Shown piece after piece: positions 3,216 to 43,830 of a DNA stretch of 64,000 nucleotides; the first letter of the stretch is position 1, and the number at the start of each line of letters is the position of its first letter. The translations under genes were made by a program, and so were the position numbers. The DNA is from Ascaphus truei (taxonomy: Eukaryota > Chordata > Amphibia > Anura > Ascaphidae). The stretch is taken from contig CM071569.1 of NCBI GenBank assembly GCA_036426205.1, positions 285,442,418 through 285,506,417 on the forward strand. The letters run 5' to 3'. A model generated the notes under the pieces. It had not been told where the DNA came from and ran no database searches. It saw nothing but the letters and a program-made list of their open reading frames with translations.

Positions 3216-4019
3216 TTTTATATACACCTGTTTTTATATTTTTATAATGTTTATTTAAACATTTTTTATATATATATTTATGCATGAGCATTTTTAAAGA
3301 TACATTTCTGCATTAAATTTCAAACATTGATTGATTGTATTATTTTTTGGACCTTTGCATATGTAAGATGCAGAGGGATTAATTACATGTCTCTTTCTAT
3401 CCCATGTGTATCCACTCAGTTTAATCGTTAACCCAATTAAAATCCAGTTAGCCATTCACCAATGGGAACTAAGCTAGGGGTATATATGCATCCCACACCC
3501 ATCACAAAGTCACTCCTGATGAAATCGATGAGATGAAACGCGTAGAGTGACGCTTGTACTACTGGCCGGAACTCCTGGAAACTGATGACATCACTTCCTG
3601 TGCAGTTGGAACGCAAACCAGTGACACGCACGCCACGGAAGGAGGGGAACCAGATACACCATCTATCCGGCTGCTGAGATCCACTGCGTGTGATCGAAAT
3701 GCTTTTAAACTTTTGAAATCATGTGAGTGTAATACCTTTCACTTACCTTTTATAAATTCTTGGTATACAGTCTGCGCTATGTCCAGTCTTCTTTTCTAAG
3801 GTCTCTTGGATTCTATATGGGGCTGAGATTGATTTCCTGAATACAGTGTGACATCCATACTCTGGGAAAGATACCTTTACGTGCCTTTAAATCTTCTCAC
3901 ACTTGTGAGTACATCTGCATTAGATCAGCCAATTTATTTAATTTGTCACTACAATATTGCACTATCTATATACATTTTTGTTTTCACATATCTCTGCGCT
4001 TCCCGGAGATTCATCCCTA
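3216..4019 (+). repeat. right arm of inverted terminal repeat (upstream, inverted pLTR)
   Basis: Inverted copy of 83-874. It is opposite in orientation to the Penelope coding body and contains the better preserved hammerhead motif at 3509-3551. It ends at 4019, exactly where readable gag sequence of the host LTR element stops. Confidence 0.8.
3509..3551 (+). ncRNA. hammerhead ribozyme (type I topology, zero-loop stem III)
   Basis: Stem I: GTCACTC (3509-3515) pairs perfectly with GAGTGAC (3545-3551), 7 bp. Core: CTGATGA (3516-3522) and GAAA (3535-3538). Stem II: an unpaired A, then ATC/GAT closing a 5-nt loop (3523-3534). Stem III is the self-complementary ACGCGT (3538-3543) with no loop. The predicted cleavage is after A3544 (GUA, an NUH site). 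All invariant core residues are present. Known hammerheads with such short stem III, including those of Penelope-like elements and newt satellite DNA, work best as dimers, and a palindromic ACGCGU allows exactly that. Activity is inferred. Confidence 0.8.
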
Positions 4020-4850
4020 TGAGCTGCTCCTGAAAGATGTGGTCCAGCCGGCGTTGGTAAGTCCTGGCCTCAGAGCCTTCCACCCAGTGTAACCCGTACA
4101 AAGCCATGCGGGTCACATAAGTGACATAGGTCTCTTGAGGGTGCCTCTCCTCCAGCCGGAATTTACCCCGGTAAGCTTCAGGGGTAAAACCATGCTGAAA
4201 TAGCAAAAGTTCTTTCAGGTGGTCATAGTCATCAGCATACTCCTCTGTAAGCGCCATCAATGGCTGCTTAGCCAAGCCGGAGAGTAGCGGGTCCAAGCGT
4301 GCAACCCTATGCTCGGGGAGCACCTTGTACCGCCGGCACTGCGTCTCGAAGTTCCTTAAAAACATGTCGATCTGATCAGTGCCTTCCACGTACCTGGTGA
4401 GACTGTGCTTGTCCAGTTGGAGTTCATCTTTGCGGGTTTGGACCGGGGGGCAATAAGCGGGTCTGTTCACTGCCATTGAGATAAACTTTAGCCGCTCCTC
4501 CGCTGTCCCTCGGTCTCCCCATGTTGTAATCAGTGCCAACATTTCAGGGGTAAACAGACTGGTGGCCGCAGCCATCAGTACCCCTCGTGTTGCACTTGGC
4601 CCGGGAGGTGCACTTGTCCCCTCCCGGGATCCTGCCGCTCCGGCACCGGGTTCAGTCCCTGATCTCCGGGCGGCTGTACAAGAGCAAGCTGAGCCGTATC
4701 CTGAGACTCTGCCCGCTCGGCTTCATGTGCTGTGATTGCGGCAACCATGTCCTCGACATCCTGGTCCACATATTCCAGTCCCTATTCACGGCACTTGTCC
4801 TTTAGCTGACTTCTAGTTTTCAGGTAATAGACACTCTCCGCTTCACTCAT
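4020..4850 (-). pseudogene. LTR-retrotransposon gag (SCAN/Gmr1-like capsid), interrupted
   Basis: Gag of a Metaviridae-type element. An ATG at 4850 opens MSEAESVYYLKTRSQLKDKC, resembling a SAP-like N-terminus. An in-frame TAG at 4784-4782 follows. The same frame continues (GLEYVDQDVEDMVAAI...) to a stop at about 4577. A second frame begins at an overlapping ATG (4575) and gives about 185 residues, including a capsid-like region with FLRNFETQCRRY, the RVARLDPLLSG segment and GFTPEAYRGKFR. The last two resemble the Gag region from which vertebrate SCAN domains derive. Reading stops at 4020, where the Penelope arm begins. The stop codon, frame change and insertion mean it is not functional. The tRNA-Leu-type primer site just upstream (5007-5024) confirms the orientation. 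Confidence 0.7.
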
Positions 4851-5024: not shown

Positions 5025-5668
5025 GTTTTATTAATACGCCTGTGACGATAGCCTACACAGGTCTATTAATCTTACACAAAAATAACTGGGTTTGAACTGA
5101 ACGAGGCTTAAGATATAATAAAGTGATTTTATTCCTTAGGATAGGTGAACACACGAAATAATGCAGTAACAAGACAAGAAGTACACTTACTTAGGGGTTG
5201 GGGAATGAGAAGTTTGATGTTGCATTCCTCTTCAGCAATCAGGTAATCATTCCGGTTATATCAGGTAACCATATCAGCCAACGAGGACGACCAACAGACA
5301 GATAAGACAAGACAAAGGATATATGGGGAACAGCAGTTTATAAACCTTTTGTCCCTCTATCCTTAACCTTAAGTACCTGTGATTGGTTTTCAATTACCTC
5401 CAGCCAATCTTTGATGGGGGAACACATTTTAGTACATGCCCCCTGCTAGCTGGCACAGGCGCAGTAGAACTTTGGGGTCTCATTTCTGTAGCCCACCTAT
5501 GCAACTGGAATGCCAGCCAGTCTACCCATCTGGATCTCTGACAGGATAACCTTTGTTGGAAGGTGATAAATGGGACACTTAAAAACTGCTCTGGTATGAG
5601 CCTCCTCCGCCCTCAAATAGACAGGGAGGGTGATAAAACCCTTTGAACAAAACTTAAGTCCTAGACAT
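5025..5668 (-). repeat. putative 5' LTR of the gag element
   Basis: Follows the primer site directly. On the minus strand it contains AATAAAATCACTTTATTA near 5135-5115 and ends in AATAAAAC before TGGTGG. The outer boundary near TGTCTAGGAC (about 5668) is a guess from the TG rule; no second LTR is present to confirm it. Confidence 0.5.
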
Positions 5669-6765
5669 TGGGGCCATCTGCTATCCTGGTATGGAAAGGA
5701 ATTTCCTCTGGGTCTTTGTCCATACCTTGGGACACAGCATTAAACATAAAACATAAACGTATTAAAATATCCGGTTCTGTTGGGTCTAGAAGAACCAAAC
5801 TTCCCAGTTCTCATGGCCGGAACTGGGACACCATATGGTCCAAAAAGCGACTTGCTACGACCTACGGAATCGGAGATACACAAATGCACATTAATAATTT
5901 TTCATTTTAATACAAAAATCTCCGCTAAAAAAAGAAATCTCAGCTTTTCACTAAATCCCCATTGAAAACAACGGGCTTCTCCACCGTAGACTTTCAATGG
6001 TAAATAGCCGCCATTGAGGTCAATGGGGTTTCTCCGCCATTGAAGTCTACGGGAAAAGTCCCGAACTTTCAAGGGGGTCTATACTCCGTCGGGTTGGTCC
6101 AGCAGGGTCAAGTATGGTTCTGCAGTGATGCCGGAGCAGTGACTGCAGACACCCCAAACCTTGATCCGCTGGGCCCCCCGGAACCGGAGATATCGAGTAC
6201 CAAAATACAGCATTACATACTTAGTCATTTTTCTGAGCCGTTTCTGCCGCCGCCGGCAAAGCCTATGGCGCGACCCGTTCTTCTTGGTTCGACCCTTATC
6301 GGGGGTCCAGGATTTGGGGACCCAGTTGTGGTCGAGTGGGGGGAAGCCTAGGAACTAGGGGCAAAAAGAATTTTATTCCTAGGGGCCCTAGAACTGTTTA
6401 TTCCCACGCCACTTGACGTTGACCTTGACTTGTAAGTCCTCAAAGCTCTCCTATTGAAAATGTATCCGCTTTGTGGTTTGCGGTCTGCACGGCAGCCAAC
6501 TTGTTCTTCGAAAGTTACCTCGAGGAACCTCCATTGAAGTCGATGGGCCCATTGACTTTCAATGGGAAACCGCCGCTCTCCCTCTCGGACGCCACCTGCT
6601 GGTCTTTACAGGAAACAGGACTAAAACAACAAGATTCTCCATTAGAATGCATGGAGCCCTAATGGCGGCCAATGGGGACCTGCAAAATGGTGCCTGAAAA
6701 GGCGGGAAAACTTCACAAAGAGCTATAATCATTAAAGGACTATTAACCCTTGTGCTCCCGGTTGG
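5669..6765. other. non-coding interspersed sequence
   Basis: No convincing coding region. Contains several variants of CCATTGAAGTCAATGG-like words in both orientations (5960-6050, 6530-6570), probably parts of an unidentified interspersed repeat. From about 6750 the sequence resembles 48740-48960. Confidence 0.4.
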
Positions 6766-8829: not shown

Positions 8830-9575
8830 TTAATGAGCCTGTGTGTGTGTGGCAGAGTAAGGGTTACTGAGGCAGTGTTCCTGGCAGTGAAGGGGTTACT
8901 TGTCTGTCTAGTAGTGGAGGGGGTTACTGAGCGTGTGTCTGGTAGTGAAGGGGTTACTGAGCCTGTGTGTGGCAGTGAAGGGGTTACTGAGCCTGTGTGT
9001 GGCAGTGAAGGGGTTACTGAGATGGGGTTACGGAGACTGTGTGTGGCAGTGAAGGGGTTACTGAGCCTGTGTTCCTGGCAATGAAGGGGTTACTGAGCCT
9101 GTGTTCCTGGCAATGAAGGGGTTATTGAGCCAGTATGGCAGTGATGGAGTTATTGAGCCTCTGTGTGGCAGTGAAAGGGTTACTGAGCCTGTATTCCTGG
9201 AAGTAAAGGGGTTACTTGTCTGTACAGCAGTGAAGGGGTTACTGAGCCTGTGTGTGGCAGTGAAGGGGTTACTGAGCCTGTGTGTGGCACTGACAGGGTT
9301 ACTGAGCCTGTGTGTTGCAGTGAAGGGGTTAATGAGCCAGTGTGTGGCAATGACAGGGTTACTGAGCCAGTGTGTGGCAGTGAAGGGGTTACTGAGCCTG
9401 TGTGTGGCAGTGACAGGGTTACTGAGCCTGTGTGTGGCAGTGACAGGGTTACTGAGCCTGTGTGTGGCAGTGACGGGGTTACTGAGCCTGTGTGTGGCAG
9501 TGACAGGGTTACTGAGCCGGTGTCTGGTAGTGACAGGGTTACTGAGCCTGTGTGTGGCAGTGACAGGGTTACTGA
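8830..9575 (+). repeat. 30-bp minisatellite (GGGTTACTGAGCCTGTG unit)
   Basis: About 24 copies of a 30-bp unit made of GGGTTACTGAGCCTGTGTG plus TGGCAGTGACA or GTGAAG variants. The unit length is a multiple of three, which explains long open frames here; they are not genes. Copies at 9240-9570 are more regular than those at 8850-9240. Confidence 0.95.
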
Positions 9576-19265: not shown

Positions 19266-19427
19266 TGTAATGTATACCCTGTTCATTTATGTAACTGTAT
19301 TTGTAACCAAGTATTATTTGTCTTAAACTCTGTGCCCAGGACATACTTGAAAACGAGGGTAACTCTCATGTATTACTTCCTGGTAAAATATTTATAAATA
19401 AATAATAAGAGAAGATTTAGTATTGAA

Positions 19428-19515
19428 CAGCCAGAGGTGGTGCGTCTGTGGGCTTGTTAAAATGCTGTGCTCATTACTTTTATTGCTTCTGCGTCTTTTC
19501 AGACAACTATGTGTG
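19428..19515 (+). pseudogene. fragment of PIF/Harbinger transposase gene
   Basis: Matches 37577-37670 of the Harbinger transposase. Shared words include CAGCCAGAGGT, GGGCTTGTTAAAATGCTGTG and CAGACAACT; it corresponds to the TARGRAVPGLVKMLCSLHYLAS region. It breaks off into a TG-rich minisatellite at 19515. It shows that the family has more than one member in this 64 kb. Confidence 0.8.
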
Positions 19516-35893: not shown

Positions 35894-35904
35894 AGACCTC
35901 TAGG

Positions 35905-36280
35905 GCCTCATGCAGTAAGCGTTGATAAGGGAATTATCGCCATTTTATAGGCAAAATTGGGTTTGAGATTCAGTAAGCGCCGATAAGTGCTTGATTTCGC
36001 CAGGTTTCGGAGCCGATTATTTTGTTATGGCCAGTCGGCTGCCGATAAGCCTGTTTTCGCCACTGATCGCCACTTTTTTAAATCGGCTGGATTCAACAAA
36101 AAAAAACAGCTTATCGGGGCTGATCGGCACTACGAAATTGAGATGTTATGGCCAATTTCTCCCGCCAACTAAAGTTGGCAGTTTGGACGGGAGAACGATC
36201 GCTAAGGCTGCCGGAACGGCACTTAGAAAAAAATAAATCTTCTGTACATCAATGGAGTCAATGGAGCGGGGACGTATAAC
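35905..36280 (+). repeat. left (sub)terminal inverted repeat of the Harbinger element
   Basis: Rich in CCGATAAG / GATCGCCAC words. The segment 36121-36265 pairs in inverted order with 43022-43180. Confidence 0.7.
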
Positions 36281-37240
36281 AGTATAGTACTGTTTATGTT
36301 TCATTGCTCACAATACAAACGTCATTTGCATTACAGTGTGGGGGCATTCCCTGCATTGTGTCACAGCTGACGTGTATTATTTGCATAACATTATACTTTT
36401 ACATGTTTGCAGCATTTGCGGGTCACATTACTCATCATGTGATGATGTGCCAAGGGAAAATACTATACTCAACTCTTAAAGGAGAACCTCACATCATATC
36501 ACACATTTTACTGAACTGAGCAACAATTATTTACATGATGTTACACATGACACACATGTCACACATACACCGTATATTCATGTTCCTTTACATTACACAA
36601 TGCTTGTAATGTGACACGCATCTTTAAACGTTCATGTACATCTGTCTTCTCATGTTTACATCTAGTTTTGGGTCCTCCCTATTTTCATGACGTCACTTAT
36701 TGGACGCTTAATCACATTGCATGTTTACATTGTAACCGTAGCATTACAAGCACTTCAACCTAACTTATACACACATGTACAGTAATTCAGCATTGGGACA
36801 CCTTGTAAACTCATTCTATAGCAACTATCCTCATTACACAAATGCATGCATATGCACACGACTATTCATTGTTGTCAACATGTCACAATAACATGCCTAA
36901 TTACACATGTTACACAAAACTTTTCCCACGTCAATCTCAGCCTTTTTGTCTAATTACATGACTGACTGTTGCGTTCACAAGTGTTACATGCATTGCACAT
37001 TACACTATTTATTTGCAAGCAATGTTTCTACAAAGGTTCACGTCACATCATTGCCAAATATCATCATTCCCTGCAGAATACACACAACAAATACTTATAA
37101 CAAGAACTGCACACAGCTTGCCACAGAAGTACTTTATTATGTTAATGTAACACCTTGCATTTTACTATGTCACCTGACATCATCACATACCTATTTAAAG
37201 GACGCCCATTACCTGCTTATTCACAGCTACTCATTTCAAA

Positions 37241-38072
37241 ATGTTGCGATTGTTTAGGAGACGGAGGAACATTCTTTTCTATGACATGCTTGATGATGAA
37301 GAGAATCATATAGGGCAAGGGAGGGACACACCGAGGGACAGTGACAGGGACAGTCACGCGGATACGACAGGGACAGGGAGAGGGACAGGCCGAGGGACAG
37401 GTAGAGGGACAGGAGATCAGAGGAGAAGACAGAGGAGACAAGTTGTGCCTCGTCCGCGTCTGTACAGGGAGAGAACCCTGTTAGATGGGATGAGTGAGGA
37501 GGAGATTGTAAGTCGCTATCGTTTGAGTTCAGCAGCAATCTTATCTCTTTATCAGGAGATAAGGGGAGATTTAGATTTTTTCACAGCCAGAGGTCGTGCA
37601 GTCCCTGGGCTTGTTAAAATGCTGTGCTCATTACATTATCTTGCTTCCGCGTCATACCAGACAACTGTGGGCATAGTGGGCGGGGTCTCGCAATCTACAT
37701 TCTCGCGGGCCTTGACCCAGTTTCTCTATGCACTCAATAGACGCGCTAGGAATTATATTCATTTTCCTACAGAGGCGACAGAGTGGCTGGAAGTCAGGAC
37801 TGGCTTTTATAATATAGCAGGAATACCATGTGTGCTGGGTGCAATCGATTGCACACATGTTGCTTTTATTGCACCTAGTCAGAGTGAGCATGTGTACCGC
37901 AATCGTAAGCACTACCATTCACTCAATGTACAGGTGGTATGTGATGCGACGATGAGGATAATGCATGTGGTACCCAAATTCCCTGGTTCCAGTCACGATT
38001 CCTCTATCCTGAGGAACTCTTCAGTCTTCCATGCGTTCGAAGAGGGACATTTTGAACATGGTTGGCTGCTGG
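37241..38072 (+). CDS. PIF/Harbinger transposase, exon 1
   Basis: First 277 codons plus one base of a 402-aa transposase. Residues 1-75 are Arg/Asp/Gly-rich and hydrophilic. About 80-175 form the helical region with a helix-turn-helix-like stretch (VGIVGGVSQSTFSRAL). AIDCTHVAF carries the first catalytic Asp (D203), and PGSSHDSSIL the conserved PGxxHDS motif. The exon ends in GWLLG, where a GT donor (GG|GTGAGTAC) splits the glycine codon. The splice restores the family motif GDSGY exactly, which makes the intron near certain. HARBI1 and autonomous Harbinger transposases cleave and integrate DNA as DDE enzymes and usually need a second, DNA-binding partner for nuclear import and site recognition. 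No stop or frameshift is seen. Confidence 0.9.
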
Positions 38073-38181
38073 GTGAGTACACATTTACATGTTCTAACAC
38101 AAAACACATTTTTATTTAGGAATGTTGGCATTGTACAATTTGATCACTAATGTCAGCTTATGTGTGCTCCATTCATTATAG
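38073..38181 (+). other. 109-bp intron of the transposase gene
   Basis: GTGAGTAC donor and TTCATTATAG acceptor. Removing it joins GWLLG to DSGYGIRPW, the conserved Harbinger motif, in frame. Confidence 0.85.
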
Positions 38182-38558
38182 GTGACTCAGGATACGGAAT
38201 TAGGCCGTGGCTCTTGACTCCGGTGCTAAACCCTCAAACTGAAGCAGAGGACAGGTACAATGCAGCCCATATATCTACAAGATCTGTTATAGAGAGGACA
38301 TTTGGCCTACTCAAGACCAGATTTAGGTGTCTGGACAGAACTGGTGGGGCTCTTCTATACAAGCCTCAAAAAGTGTCTGATATTATCCTTGCCTGTTGCA
38401 TTTTGCACAATGTTGCACTGAGGCACAATGTACAGTCAGACCTAGCTGAGCCTTTGGTAGACGAGCATCCCACCCATGTAGCTGCTGAAAATGAACAAAC
38501 AGCCAGTGGTGGCCAGACACGCCAGAATCTCATCAATTCATTTTTTTCTTGTAAGTAA
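38182..38558 (+). CDS. PIF/Harbinger transposase, exon 2
   Basis: Codons 278-402 and stop. DSGYGIRPWLLTP supplies the second catalytic Asp (D279). TRSVIERTFGLLKTRFRCLD supplies the catalytic Glu (E315), giving the D35E spacing of this superfamily. The C-terminal helix-rich part (VSDIILACCILHNVALRHN) matches the usual end of HARBI1-type proteins. Total length 402 aa is near the family's usual 350-420. Followed by an AT-rich 3' region without an obvious AATAAA within the first 100 bp. Confidence 0.9.
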
Positions 38559-41500
38559 AAACATATATGTTCCAAGTTCTACTTTTATACTTACATTATG
38601 TTATCTTAACTATAATGTTTTTTTATATACCCTTCTGGTAGGACACAGATGAATATGGGTTGCACACCTTTCTTCTCTCTGCTGTGTGCACAAAGGGATG
38701 TGGCACCGGTATGTTATTGTTGCACAGGTTATATAATCCCTCTTCAATTTTACTTTAGTTGTGTGTATGTGAATACAACTGGGGTAACAAAGCACTAATA
38801 TTTTAGCATTGTGTTGTTCCTTATGCTAACACAATACACATATTATGCCCATACTCATTCATGCTTCTAGTATGCTTACATACAATGTTATTGGTGCAGT
38901 GTAACATGTACATCCATATGATGTGTACACCAGGCTGATTTACATTTTGAATGTCATTAAATATACATGGTGTTGCACATTCAACACCAAATACACACTT
39001 TGCTGTGTTGTTTACGGTACTGAAGATGGCATGTCAATGTTTGCAATTTATATATTGTTCCTTTGCATTATAGGTATATCTCCAGTATGACTGATCATGG
39101 TATGTATATTTGCTGACATCTCTCATAAGATGTGCCTACCTCAATCTTCCTATAATTATTTGAAGTAAAAACCCTACATATTGGTTTAAACACAAATGTA
39201 ACATACATGTACTTTCTGTATCATGTATATGCATTTAGCTACTCTTGAGCTTTCATGTGCATTGTATTAGAAAATGATTACTCACATTTCATCACATTTT
39301 ATGTATGTTTCCTTATAAATTCCATTAATGTAATATAGAGGTGTTTGGAGAAAAGGGGATAACTGTACTTATGTGTTTACTTACGGGAGCTCATTCATCA
39401 CGGATGAAATTGACTGATCATAACACTCCATGCATGAATGCCTGTAATCACAACAATGCGTACTACATCTTATATTTAGCAATGTAGGTGTTTTTTAATG
39501 CTAGGAATTAATAGTCAACATTAATTTACATTTGTGACATGTGTATGTATAAGTCACACGTGTGTGGATGTGTCCTACATGTACCAAGTGTAAAACTGTT
39601 AACAGAAAACACAATTTTGTTGCAAATGTTACTGTCATTTAGCATTTCTAATTTACCAATATGACAATGTTGGTAATATTTTTGCTATATTAATCACGTC
39701 ACTTCATCATTATCATGATGATAATTATCAAGTATTCTCACAATTGTAACGTCAATCACGTGCACATTAGCATAGACACACTTTGTAAGACAACTGTTTG
39801 TGTCTGTATCAATTTGTGTAGGATCCATGTATAACACCGACAAATGATAACACCAGCTTTATTATGGTGGCTTATATCATCATATTGACTATACTATGTA
39901 TTTTTAGAACGTTTAATAAACACAGTAAACTATAGTTAGTTAGGTTAATGAAATATACACAGAAACGTACTTCATTACATGATGTTCATGTCATAATCAG
40001 AACATCATGCATTGTAGGGGACCACAACATCTGGCCAATAACATTATTTGCTACAGTCCCAAACCATTTTATCAACATACCCATGTAACAAGAGATTTTT
40101 AACAATAAATGGCTAGTTGGTTGTAAGTGTCCTTTACATTGGGAGAAGGAGTGGCTCAGTGAGTAAAGACACACACTGGCACAGAGATTTTGAAGCAGGG
40201 GAGTCTGGTTCAATTCCCGGTGTCGGCTCCTTGTGACCTTGGGCAAGTCACTTTATCTCCCTGTGCCTCAGGCGGCAAAAAATAAATTGTAAGTTCCACG
40301 GGCCAGGGACCTCAGCCTGAAAAATGTGTCTGTAAAGCGCTGTGTACAACTAGCAGCGCTATACATGAACATGCTCATATTATAAATATTATTATTATTA
40401 TTATTGTTACATAGTTTCGACAGTCATACGTTCCATTACACAATAGAATTCACAAATGTGTTAGCAGAGTGGGAATGGTTGTTATATATAAATCACACCA
40501 TGCCATAAAATGATAGTAGTCATTAAAGAACACTCAATAAAAATTCATGAGGCACTATTTTGCAACATCATTATGTTAATTAAGTGCTTATGCAATATAG
40601 GCATAAGGGTATCACATTTTTAATTGTTTGTTAATAAGCGCTGCAAGCAATATAAAATTAGTTCCATATGTAGTATAGTAGTCGGTGGCTCCTCCTCACA
40701 ATCATCTCATATAAAGGTAGACTCTTCTGAAATCATACATTGATCCGATTGTATCTTCCCCGACATCTCTGAAATACAGCAAACACATGATGGTCAAATA
40801 TGGCACCTTACTATATATGTATCCGTGACAACGCATTACACAGCTCTATATGATTGTGTACATACACACGTCACTCACTTATATGTTAGAAGTACAAGTG
40901 TACATCAGTATGTAATGTTTCTTTAAATTTGTAGCAGGCATAACTATGTATATGATGTGAACGTTGCCTGTATACTGAAAAATGTGCGCGCACATCTTAG
41001 TGTGCGCACGCACTTCAGGCTTGGCTGCACTAACTGTTAGCGCATGCGCAAAACAAAGCGTACGTTGTGCGTTCAATACATCTTGAAAATACCATTAAAC
41101 ATAAAATCTTTATTTCAAATACAATGAATACGAAACTACATTCGTTCTAAACGAGTACATCTGTATTCTTTTTAAACAGACGTGTTTGGACAGAAAGGAC
41201 GGCCGATAACACAATGCGCAAATGCAATACGTGTGACGTCATGTTAAACCAGCGTGAAACGCACGCTAACACTCCTCCCACTCAATTAACATTCGGCTAA
41301 CGCCCAGTTGACGCCTACAAACACTGAGCCGCACACATGACACACTGCAGTTACCGTTACTATAACAAAACATGACAGCCAATAGGCTTTGAGGCGCGCA
41401 CGTCGCTTGGGGGCAGGACTTACATCCGTAATCCTTTTTAAGGACGCCTTGGGCCATGACAAGGGTCCCACGTCATACGTGGTGGACCCGCTTTTAAATG

Positions 41501-41778
41501 TTGCATGATAACAAAACAGGTATGTGTTAGAGTTATGTTAAAATGTTGCTAATATGGTTAAAGGGATAGGAAAGTACGTATATTTATTCCGTCAGCAATG
41601 TGTACTACTCTTTCAGGTTCTACTATATTGTATTCGGCAACAATTTCTTTGTGATCGCTACATGTTATGCAGTCTGCAATGTTACGCTGTATCCACGCAT
41701 TGAAAGTGAAAATGGTGGTTAAAAACAAAAACAAAAAAAACATTTAAACGCACAGTCAACGCATAACGGTTGTTATAT
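38559..41778. other. non-coding interior of the Harbinger element
   Basis: AT-rich, no coding domain apart from the nested SINE. 40980-41060 has a CpG/GTGCGC-rich island (GTGCGCGCAC, GCGCATGCGC). 41220-41480 is another GC-richer stretch. Either could be regulatory for the flanking ORFs, without direct evidence. Confidence 0.4.
40138..40415 (+). mobile_element. tRNA-derived CORE-SINE (MIR-like) nested in the Harbinger element
   Basis: tRNA-like head with an A-box-like GTGGCTCAGTGAGTAAAG (about 40151) and a B box GGTTCAATTCC (40207-40217). The MIR-type core GACCTTGGGCAAGTCACTT and CTGTGCCTCAGGC follows. The L2-like 3' part is AAGCGCTGTGTA ... CAGCGCTATA, ending in an (ATT)n tail. The order head-core-LINE-tail is that of MIR/CORE-SINEs. 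Confidence 0.85.
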
Positions 41779-42447
41779 TTACCATTCTTCTAGAATTAAC
41801 TCATCGTCTGGCTGCAACTGGTCGCTCCAGAAATGCAAGGCATTTTCATCCACGCTTGACCCACCCGCTGAATCCAGTATGACACACATCTCCTCCATGA
41901 AGCGCTCATAGGAATCGCCACTGCTTTCTTCAAACAATTGGTCGGGAGGTAGGTTCATTTCTTCGGGTTCCCATTCCAATGCATTTTCAGCTGAAAGGCT
42001 TGGTACATAATCATAGTACTTTTGTTCTTGTACAATGTGGGTTTCAGGAATGGAGGGTGCAGATATTGCAGCAGGTATCGATTCACACGGAACAGTAGTA
42101 GCGGATCCATTGCTATTGGCATTAGGAATAAATATGCCTTTCACAACAATATATGTGCCCTCTTTCAGGGTAAAATGCTTTTCCTTTGCAATCTTCCAGA
42201 AACTATAGGTGTGTTCTTGCTTATCCTGCACACGTTCAAAAAAGTCATTAGTTGATAAAGTGAATCTTATTGATGAATTAAAATTCCGCGCATGCCTACG
42301 GTCTTGGTAATAAGGATATTTTGCTCGAATCAAATCATAGATTTGGCGTGTGCTCGCTTTGTGTCCGCGACTGTTCAAAATTGCTTCTGAAACCATGTAC
42401 TTATAACCTAAGAGGGGATTCATATTGCTAACGAATTCATCAGCCAT
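41779..42447 (-). CDS. divergent forkhead (winged-helix) domain protein
   Basis: 222 aa, single exon, ATG at 42447 with good context (GACATGG). Residues about 10-92 match a forkhead domain: GYKYMVSEAILNS (canonical PPYSYxxLIxxAI), STRQIYDLIRAKYPYYQ (LTLSxIYxxIxxxFPYY), NFNSSIRFTLSTNDFFERV (WQNSIRHNLSLNxxFxKV) and TYSFWKIAKE (KGxxWxL). In helix 3 the invariant N-S-I-R and N of LSxN are kept, but His of RHN is Phe-Thr, so base contacts may differ. About 93-222 is Ser/Pro- then Glu/Asp-rich and ends PDDELILEEW, like an acidic activation region. No stop or frameshift. I cannot place it in a named FOX subfamily. It lies opposite the transposase, inside the inverted repeats. It could be a captured host retrocopy or the element's own DNA-binding partner. 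Confidence 0.75.
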   Translation of the reverse strand: MADEFVSNMNPLLGYKYMVSEAILNSRGHKASTRQIYDLIRAKYPYYQDRRHARNFNSSIRFTLSTNDFFERVQDKQEHTYSFWKIAKEKHFTLKEGTYIVVKGIFIPNANSNGSATTVPCESIPAAISAPSIPETHIVQEQKYYDYVPSLSAENALEWEPEEMNLPPDQLFEESSGDSYERFMEEMCVILDSAGGSSVDENALHFWSDQLQPDDELILEEW

Positions 42448-43020
42448 GTCAGAGTAGCACAAAAGATGTGTGCAGTTCTGTGTTCTTTGCTCATCAAAAT
42501 GATTCTGCTCAATGGCTAACAAATTCCTGTGTTTCGTTTTCAAGGTCAACAAAAGTAACTACTTTTACTCCTTATTTCAAACGCCAATTGGATGTGTCCT
42601 TTTAATTGGTTTAACTTTTGTGGTTAGTGATAGGCGAATGTGGGAAAAACATGTATCATTTTTTTATCTCGTTTGTGAAAACATTCCTACACTTTTATTT
42701 CAGTAACATTGAGTTTTCTTGAAAAATAACAAAGAGCACTGTGTGAAAATAGTGCTTAGACAGCCATATCAGTAAATACACACACCTGCAAAATGAAATG
42801 TTTTTTTCCCACATACATTTCTGTGTGTATTTGAAAGTCTGGTTAACTACCTGTCTGCATGAATTTAAATACGTGTGTATCTATATATATATATATATAA
42901 ATATATCTCTCTCATAAATATATATATATATATATATATAAAGTGTATATTGTACTATATAAACACTTTCATGTTAGAAAAATGTTTGTACGGAAGCAGT
43001 AATACAAAGTAATATGTCTC
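42448..43020 (-). promoter_or_regulatory. presumed upstream region of the forkhead ORF
   Basis: AT-rich, with long (TA)n runs at 42880-42945 (several TATATATA possibilities, none specific). No other coding sequence. The role as a promoter is inference from position only. Confidence 0.3.
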
Positions 43021-43021
43021 A

Positions 43022-43290
43022 GCCCATTGACTCCATGTTTAAAACATAGATTTTCACCGTGGGTTTTTTTTTCTAAGTGCCGTCCCGCCGCCCGTGCCGA
43101 TACTTCTCCCCACCTTCTTGCCAACTTTTTGTGCCAGGACGGATTTGCGGGAAAAACTCAATTCTAGAGTGGCGATCAGCTGCGAAAAGCTGCCCGGGGC
43201 TACTAGAATTGAGCATGTTTCAAAAAGTGCCGAAGAGTGCCAAAAAGTGGCTTTTCACCACGCGGCTGCCGAAAAAAAGGCTGAAACCAA
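43022..43290 (-). repeat. right (sub)terminal inverted repeat of the Harbinger element
   Basis: Pairs with 36121-36265 in inverted order (details under the element). Its outer part has repeated AAAAAGTGCCGAAGAGTGCC-type words, comparable to the GATCGCCACTTTTTT words on the left side. Confidence 0.7.
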
Positions 43291-43830
43291 TGCGGTTCAG
43301 CTCTGGAGCCCCCCCGCACATCTACACTACTGTCAAAACACACATATCAATAAACAATCATTCATTACCGATGCGGCAATCTGCTATGGTAATGAAGCTG
43401 CATTAATGTACATTTTAATAATAGTATGCAGGAGCAGGGGGTCCCCTGAGCTGAACCGCATTGATTTCTGCCTCAGAGACCCCCTGCTTCCCGAGTTACA
43501 GGCCCCGGTATGGGGCACGGAGGCCAGTGTCGCCGCCATCTTTATAGCGTCCAAGACGAGACGTGGACGCTATAAAGATGGTGGCGACACTGGCACCGAT
43601 GCCCCATACCGGGGCCTGTAACTCGGGAAGCAGGGGGTCCCTGAGGCAGAAATCAATGCGGTTCAGCTTAGGGGACCCCCTGCTCCCGCACACTATTAAT
43701 AAAAATACATTAAAGCAGCTTCATTACCTTAGTGGCCATCCGCTAAGGCAATGGAGGGGTTAAGGCACATTAGCATGTTTATTGGGGACAATTGCCCCCA
43801 ATAAACATAGCAATATACAATACACATCCC
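43290..43830. repeat. long palindromic (fold-back) element
   Basis: Arms centred near 43556: 43431-43554 pairs with 43560-43685 almost perfectly (CTTTATAGCGTCCA / TGGACGCTATAAAG at the centre). An outer part, 43372-43432, pairs with 43690-43755 at lower identity (GGTAATGAAGCTGC / GCAGCTTCATTACC). This is a fold-back MITE-like structure. The word AATGCGGTTCAGCT occurs in its arm and also at 43290-43303 in the Harbinger end, so the two may be related or share an end. Confidence 0.8.

Follow-up and report, generated by a model that had tools for sequence, protein, structure and literature searches.

Does a forkhead gene that lies between the inverted repeats of a transposon belong to that transposon, and if so, what has it joined or displaced there? 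The question arises from a 64,000-nt window (the whole stretch analyzed, whose coordinates are used below) of the genome of the tailed frog Ascaphus truei (GCA_036426205.1, CM071569.1, 285,442,418–285,506,417), in which a PIF/Harbinger element carries a transposase gene together with an open reading frame (ORF) for a forkhead protein. A sequence-only reading had proposed that the forkhead protein had taken over, or been added to, the role of the Myb/SANT-like partner protein of such elements, or that the element had captured a host FOX retrocopy. The window element is probably one copy of a PIF/Harbinger clade with three standing genes—Myb/SANT-like, forkhead, and DDE transposase—whose Myb part appears to have been lost here.

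Both genes in the window are open and lie as first described: intact, on opposite strands, and inside diverged inverted repeats. The 402-aa transposase is encoded on the plus strand by exon 1 (37241–38072, with D203) and exon 2 (38182–38558, with D279 and E315), separated by a GT..AG intron (38073–38181) that aligns at 66% in a related copy, L075. Pfam DDE_Tnp_4 was found in both exons (72.6 and 65.7 bits), and all three catalytic residues are present, which bears out the earlier description of a spliced Harbinger transposase. Its nearest annotated relatives, among the best 120 of 531 matches, are mostly labeled "putative nuclease HARBI1" in caecilians, frogs, salamanders, and fish, with a top identity of 55–56%. 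The forkhead ORF (222 aa; 41782–42447, minus strand) stands tail to tail with the transposase gene across a 3.2-kb spacer in which no gene was recognized, and scores 59.7 bits against PF00250 (cut-off 27). Given the local composition, the chance of the open frames is 5e-8 for 259 codons and 2e-9 for 306 codons.

The forkhead ORF is highly repeated. Across a genome of 2.82 Gb in 19,235 contigs, a search with the window forkhead protein recovered at least 150 places, window included, that cover residues 1–222 at 97–100% identity (the best 150 of 5,714 candidates). No stop interrupts 148 of the 150 scored matches, and by hand count 145 keep the same 259-codon open frame. The window-type forkhead family is young and very numerous, and a single conserved host locus without a transposon is not what these places represent. 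A PF00250 profile search scored 150 matches, all over the cut-off and the best of 12,894 loose candidates; neither this total nor the 5,714 above is a copy number. Twenty-one matches above 107 bits, all read at the domain, look like host FOX genes, as does L047 at 93 bits; the remaining 128 scored 73–94 bits, and the forkheads sampled from this group and placed in trees fall on the transposon side. Annotated relatives of the ORF come from Ascaphus truei in all 5 matches of one search and in all 8 of a search with a nine-sequence profile; repeats tend to be masked in annotation. Window-type forkheads also occur as same-strand pairs, at C4:70904539/70909099, C4:156818387/156823137, and C7:24237925/24243049, at spacings of 4.56, 4.75, and 5.12 kb. 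Within the first of these, resemblance to the window stops 24 bp past the stop codon of the first ORF and is followed by the upstream part of the next copy, an arrangement that resembles a tandem duplication of the Myb–forkhead part.

Linkage of the forkhead and transposase genes was assessed in 25 forkhead loci read with flanks: L009–L028, chosen for open frames of 206–242 aa with no stop; L051–L054, which are the flanked reads of L048, L046, L049, and L050, respectively; and L075. A transposase match lies downstream on the opposite strand in 14 of the 25 and on the same strand in none; at least five of the 14 matches (L009, L014, L015, L028, and L053) are fragmentary or distant. L010 and L022, at unrelated places, share five aligned pieces of 0.7–2.5 kb at 86–95% identity. 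L075 and the window element run collinear all the way from forkhead gene to end, at 63% DNA identity in the forkhead ORF, 63–68% in the spacer, 79 and 88% in the transposase exons, and 78% in the repeat; upstream of the forkhead gene the two are unlike (45–49%). Forkhead and transposase identities diverge in step (r = 0.965 over eight loci; 19 of 40,320 permutations as high). From the start of the forkhead ORF to the end of the element, the window copy spans 6,545 bp; two other young copies, known from their forkhead and end parts only and with end pieces 97–98% identical, span 6,524 and 6,539 bp. Copies with both ORFs recur as the sequence-only reading had anticipated, and its attribution of the forkhead ORF to the element holds; the ORF is not confined to one host locus. 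The forkhead gene seems a permanent third member of the transposon's gene set and not an accident of one copy. Inside the element, between the transposase and forkhead genes, lies a SINE-like stretch (40140–40400) whose look we take to be that of a tRNA-derived SINE; the near-equal forkhead-to-end distances in the two young copies suggest that it may be fixed in the family.

The gene that completes the set lies upstream. Subfamily A comprises 14 loci, including A10, A13, A19, and A24, and in 13 of them Myb/SANT-gene exons, detected with query exons from A10, stand upstream of the forkhead ORF on the same strand; in the remaining one, L018, the upstream sequence is shorter than 1 kb. The domain exon is present in A10, A13, A24, and L026, and its edge in L012 and L015; the others have the C-terminal exon only, matched weakly in A19 (34% identity). 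The A10 exon matches Pfam Myb_DNA-bind_5 at 26.7 bits (cut-off 21.7). A10 reads, in order, left end at 109, Myb exons at 2518–2877 and 3440–4723, forkhead at 5259–5933, and minus-strand transposase matches with stops at 9303–8036; it spans more than 10 kb, within which the right end was not found. In L054, which belongs to another lineage, the forkhead gene lies between a Myb fragment on its upstream side and a transposase on its downstream side. The gene order of the clade would accordingly run Myb/SANT-like, forkhead downstream on the same strand, and transposase on the opposite strand. Three frog gene models, P0005, P0006, and P0009 (LOC142468725, FKM82_000174, and LOC142490795), mix forkhead and Myb-like pieces and are likely transposon genes rather than host genes.

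The DNA-binding domain of the forkhead ORF also looks constrained. In subfamily A the ratio of nonsynonymous to synonymous substitution rates (dN/dS) has a median of 0.82 in young pairs (29 pairs, dS 0.03–0.12), near a neutral simulation of the whole ORF (medians 0.77–0.79, 1% levels 0.46–0.51, minimum 0.40 in 900 runs), and of 0.49 in old pairs (23 pairs, dS at least 0.2). Within the DNA-binding domain the median is 0.39 (range 0.27–0.62; 25 pairs with L019 or L024), and three pairs of L011, L017, and L021 give 0.12–0.26. Between the window and L075 the domain has dN 0.49 at a dS of 1.9, which is near saturation, and the tail 0.47 and 0.48. This pattern suggests that the DNA-binding domain is under purifying selection in active lineages and decays after insertion.

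Pfam profile and predicted fold both agree with the earlier assignment of a forkhead domain: an AlphaFold2 model of the window protein places the winged-helix elements in order in residues 15–86, at low overall confidence (mean predicted local distance difference test score 46.6; blocks of residues 15–86 at 63–85), and its best fold match in the PDB is FOXA2 (E 2.5e-6; template-modeling score 0.83 over the target). By sequence, the best solved relatives are FOXC2 for the window protein and FOXA2 for L010. The recognition helix of the window protein reads NFNSSIRFTLS, departing from the canonical WQNSIRHNLS of host FOX proteins, in which the Asn and His are presumably base contacts; L048 and L049 keep near-canonical helices (WKNSIRHNLS in L049). 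Putative binding sites of the GATCGCC-like kind suggested for the inverted repeats were counted there with two motifs picked after the sequence had been viewed. At 35903–36265, GATCG occurs four times (0.61 expected) and CGATAAG three times (0.03 expected); the opposite repeat has one GATCG (0.43 expected) and no CGATAAG. The canonical consensus RYAAAYA occurs four times at the right end of A19 (0.46 expected) and once each in A10 and A24.

Forkhead domains are known from transcription factors, and the protein might act mainly as one, on element genes or nearby host genes and outside the transposition complex. We regard this as a serious possibility, although a somewhat doubtful one. It would account for the coexistence of the forkhead gene with a Myb/SANT gene that already fills the partner role, and the tail of the window protein has an acidic stretch that suits it; yet that tail is weakly constrained, and the window repeats hold no canonical forkhead sites, a lack that bears on the repeats only and not on promoters.

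It is unlikely that in the window lineage the forkhead protein replaced the Myb/SANT protein as sole DNA-binding partner, leaving a two-gene element. Some observations fit such a replacement. No Myb/SANT match was found in the element (a profile built from subfamily A exons gave a best E of 0.7), its aligned inner repeat begins only ~620 bp upstream of the forkhead start (at 43066), and no such gene appears in the part of L075 that was read, some of whose letters are N, or in the 1.2 kb upstream of the forkhead ORF in L078. Other window-type DNA tells against it. L080, the sequence between two window-type forkhead ORFs whose starts lie 4,560 bp apart, contains a 345-aa ORF that is read from the same strand as forkhead and matches at 88–91% the part joined to forkhead in P0005 and P0006; from its position, and by analogy with frog Harbinger proteins, we take this ORF to be the C-terminal exon of a Harbinger Myb-like gene. 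L076 and L080 share the spacer upstream of forkhead at 72%. The window's likeness to L080 ends at 42960, beside a TA-rich microsatellite (42878–42943) where its left part joins the rest in a deletion-like manner, and for that reason the window copy appears to have lost its Myb part there, the microsatellite marking the putative edge of the loss. As a general rule, replacement is rejected by the subfamily A Myb exons and the L080 ORF. Of the two roles first offered for the forkhead protein, "added to" therefore stands and "taken over" does not.

Very improbable is a reading in which the forkhead ORF is a separate mobile element that has repeatedly inserted into or beside Harbinger copies. It would fit the 11 of 25 loci that have a forkhead gene and no transposase in the stretch read, as well as the same-strand forkhead pairs 4.6–5.1 kb apart; repeated insertion is, however, at odds with the constant order and strand in all 14 transposase loci, with divergence in step, with collinear spacer DNA in L010/L022 and in window/L075, and with the related ends described below.

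A tree separates the transposon forkheads from those of the host. With 15 forkheads from transposons set against 22 host FOX domains from this genome, one branch divided the two sets with support 100/100; after enlargement by 20 rows (L055–L074, domain pieces spread over the match list, three of them chosen in the hope of window relatives) to 35 transposon-side forkheads, support was 98/94. These trees have no outside root, 12 of the 20 flanked loci were omitted as near-duplicates of included rows, and the split-domain classes (FOXO, FOXP, FOXK, FOXM, and others) are largely missing from the host set, whose rows carry provisional class names. A simple pattern search gave a loop of eight residues before helix 3 in 30 of the 35 transposon-side rows versus six in 21 of the 22 host rows; the transposon-side exceptions are two unmatched rows, one misparsed row, L063 with seven residues, and L070 with six. 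NSIRHNLS-like helices are kept in the rows branching closest to the host (L046, L049, and L023), and the window type has SSIRFTLS. L070, whose loop is as long as that of the host rows, falls in the tree between host FOX and the rest of the transposon-side forkheads and is a possible early form. No parent FOX class was found among the 22 host domains. A single capture followed by divergence would be the simplest reading of the tree. As for the retrocopy proposal, a recent capture fits neither the tree separation nor the at least 150 near-identical full-length copies, and an old capture is the likely origin. The idea that a host FOX retrocopy came by chance to lie in or beside a single Harbinger copy, suggested by the intronless ORF and the abundance of FOX genes, is already refuted and practically negligible given many copies, a constant place and strand wherever the transposase is found, a tree side of its own, and co-divergence.

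A single type of end recurs among these elements, reading GGGCCTCATGCAGTAAGC in the window and in L075, L077, and L079, and GGGGGCTATGCACTAAGC in subfamily A. In the window, the outer end with its terminal inverted repeat occupies 35903–36265 (plus strand) and begins GGGCCTCATGCAGTAAGC; alignments with L075, L077, and L079 end at 35903 or at most 15 bases away, which moves the end from the 35895 first given for it. Self- and cross-copy alignments place the opposite repeat at 43022–43278 (minus strand), as an inner part whose outer part is missing: 36107–36233 matches 43066–43192 at 71% and 36020–36233 matches 43066–43278 at 68%, and the inverted right repeats of other copies match at 69% (L075, to 42994–43276) and 68–69% (L077 and L079, to 43064–43278). 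This repeat stops at ~43278, where a foldback repeat outside the element (43278–43814; arms 43413–43553 and 43564–43704, 93% alike) starts and interrupts or replaces the outer end. By eye, a look-alike of the foldback repeat lies near the left end of A10. TAA adjoins single ends of A10, L012, and L075; CTA is found at the window, and CAA, TTG, TAT, GTA, and ACT elsewhere. A 3-bp target-site duplication was not seen on both sides of any one copy; in copies other than the window, one end was read. Inverted-repeat searches in six loci without clear ends gave short, weak pairs only, and a candidate end in L025 turned out, by eye, to be unrelated sequence. The right end of the L019 element directly abuts the start of another forkhead ORF, and L019 appears to have inserted into or beside a second forkhead-bearing element. 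The window holds a second Harbinger fragment, at 19405–19511, which matches part of transposase exon 1 (37559–37669) at 83%.

Several observations weigh against the three-gene reading. Among the copies read, none combines two complete ends with the three genes and a target-site duplication. For the Myb part, no Myb/SANT domain was seen in any window-type copy read, the 345-aa ORF of L080 matches no Pfam family and does not really resemble the subfamily A exon, and L078 diverges upstream of forkhead from the window and L080 alike. For linkage, the loci with no transposase in the stretch read number 11 of 25 (L011, L012, L016, L017, L021, L023, L025, L026, L027, L051, and L052, the last covering only 3 kb downstream), the L023/L046 group with near-canonical helices has none in the stretches read, and six of the eight loci behind the co-divergence belong to one subfamily. 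For selection, almost every old pair includes L019 or L024, the whole-ORF median of the old pairs is close to the simulation's 1% level, single domain values reach 0.62, and the C-terminal tail is loose (dN/dS 0.58 over 22 pairs; 0.87–1.13 in the L011/L017/L021 group); moreover, selecting loci on domain score and open frame pulls dN/dS down, an effect that should be alike for young and old pairs. Canonical RYAAAYA sites, finally, number 0 and 0 in the two window repeats (0.43 and 0.24 expected). Set beside the four at A19, this makes an unchanged FOX specificity unlikely for the window type and possible for subfamily A.

With these points counted, a clade with three standing genes remains our preferred reading. 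The constrained domain and loose tail point to DNA binding as the function retained. The forkhead protein would be made, enter the nucleus, and bind element DNA, at the ends or at promoters, in an accessory or regulatory capacity alongside the Myb/SANT protein. It could do so by recognizing a second site at the ends or by activating promoters of the element. The drift of the recognition helix between lineages would be expected if the helix tracks the element's own sites rather than fixed host FOX sites. We advance more tentatively, as plausible although short of probable, a fuller history in which a Harbinger lineage captured a forkhead gene once, the gene became its third, and the protein binds fast-changing ends together with the Myb/SANT protein and transposase, so that helix and ends evolve together; this transposon-owned FOX branch could then act on host genes under FOX regulation.

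A third protein of forkhead type, carried through several subfamilies, would mean that the Harbinger machinery can acquire an additional DNA-binding component, and that a domain best known from animal development can persist and diversify while carried by a transposon. In frog annotations, what is modeled as a FOX-like gene can belong to a transposon. The near-identical copies with open frames make the role of the forkhead protein amenable to bench work.

No earlier report of a forkhead gene in a transposon emerged from the literature searched (most subscription journals and repeat databases being outside its scope): there is none in the available part of PMC12822217, and in that of PMC9341512 the words forkhead and winged-helix occur as reference-list titles. 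Host FOX proteins share the winged-helix fold with the transposon forkheads, which differ in standing on a separate side of the tree, in a longer loop before helix 3, and, in several lineages, in an altered recognition helix. Among Harbinger-like elements, the available part of PMC9179366 describes ISL2EU as carrying a YqaJ exonuclease and most Spy elements as having no partner gene, with a DNA-binding motif in the transposase itself in both. The likeness to these elements is that the partner gene can change; the difference, as far as that part of the source extends, is that neither has a forkhead gene. A Pfam scan limited to the window forkhead and transposase ORFs gave no YqaJ match. Vertebrate PIF/Harbinger elements, according to the same available part of PMC9179366, have two ORFs, for a transposase and a Myb-like protein that are both needed for transposition, the Myb-like protein being one that interacts with the transposase, enables both to be imported into the nucleus, and binds the repeats; the word "forkhead" is absent from its main text as available. 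The elements described here resemble that system in the DDE_Tnp_4 transposase of the window with its D, D, and E residues, in their inverted repeats, and in the Myb/SANT-like gene of related copies, and they differ from it in that the Ascaphus truei clade has a third, forkhead gene.

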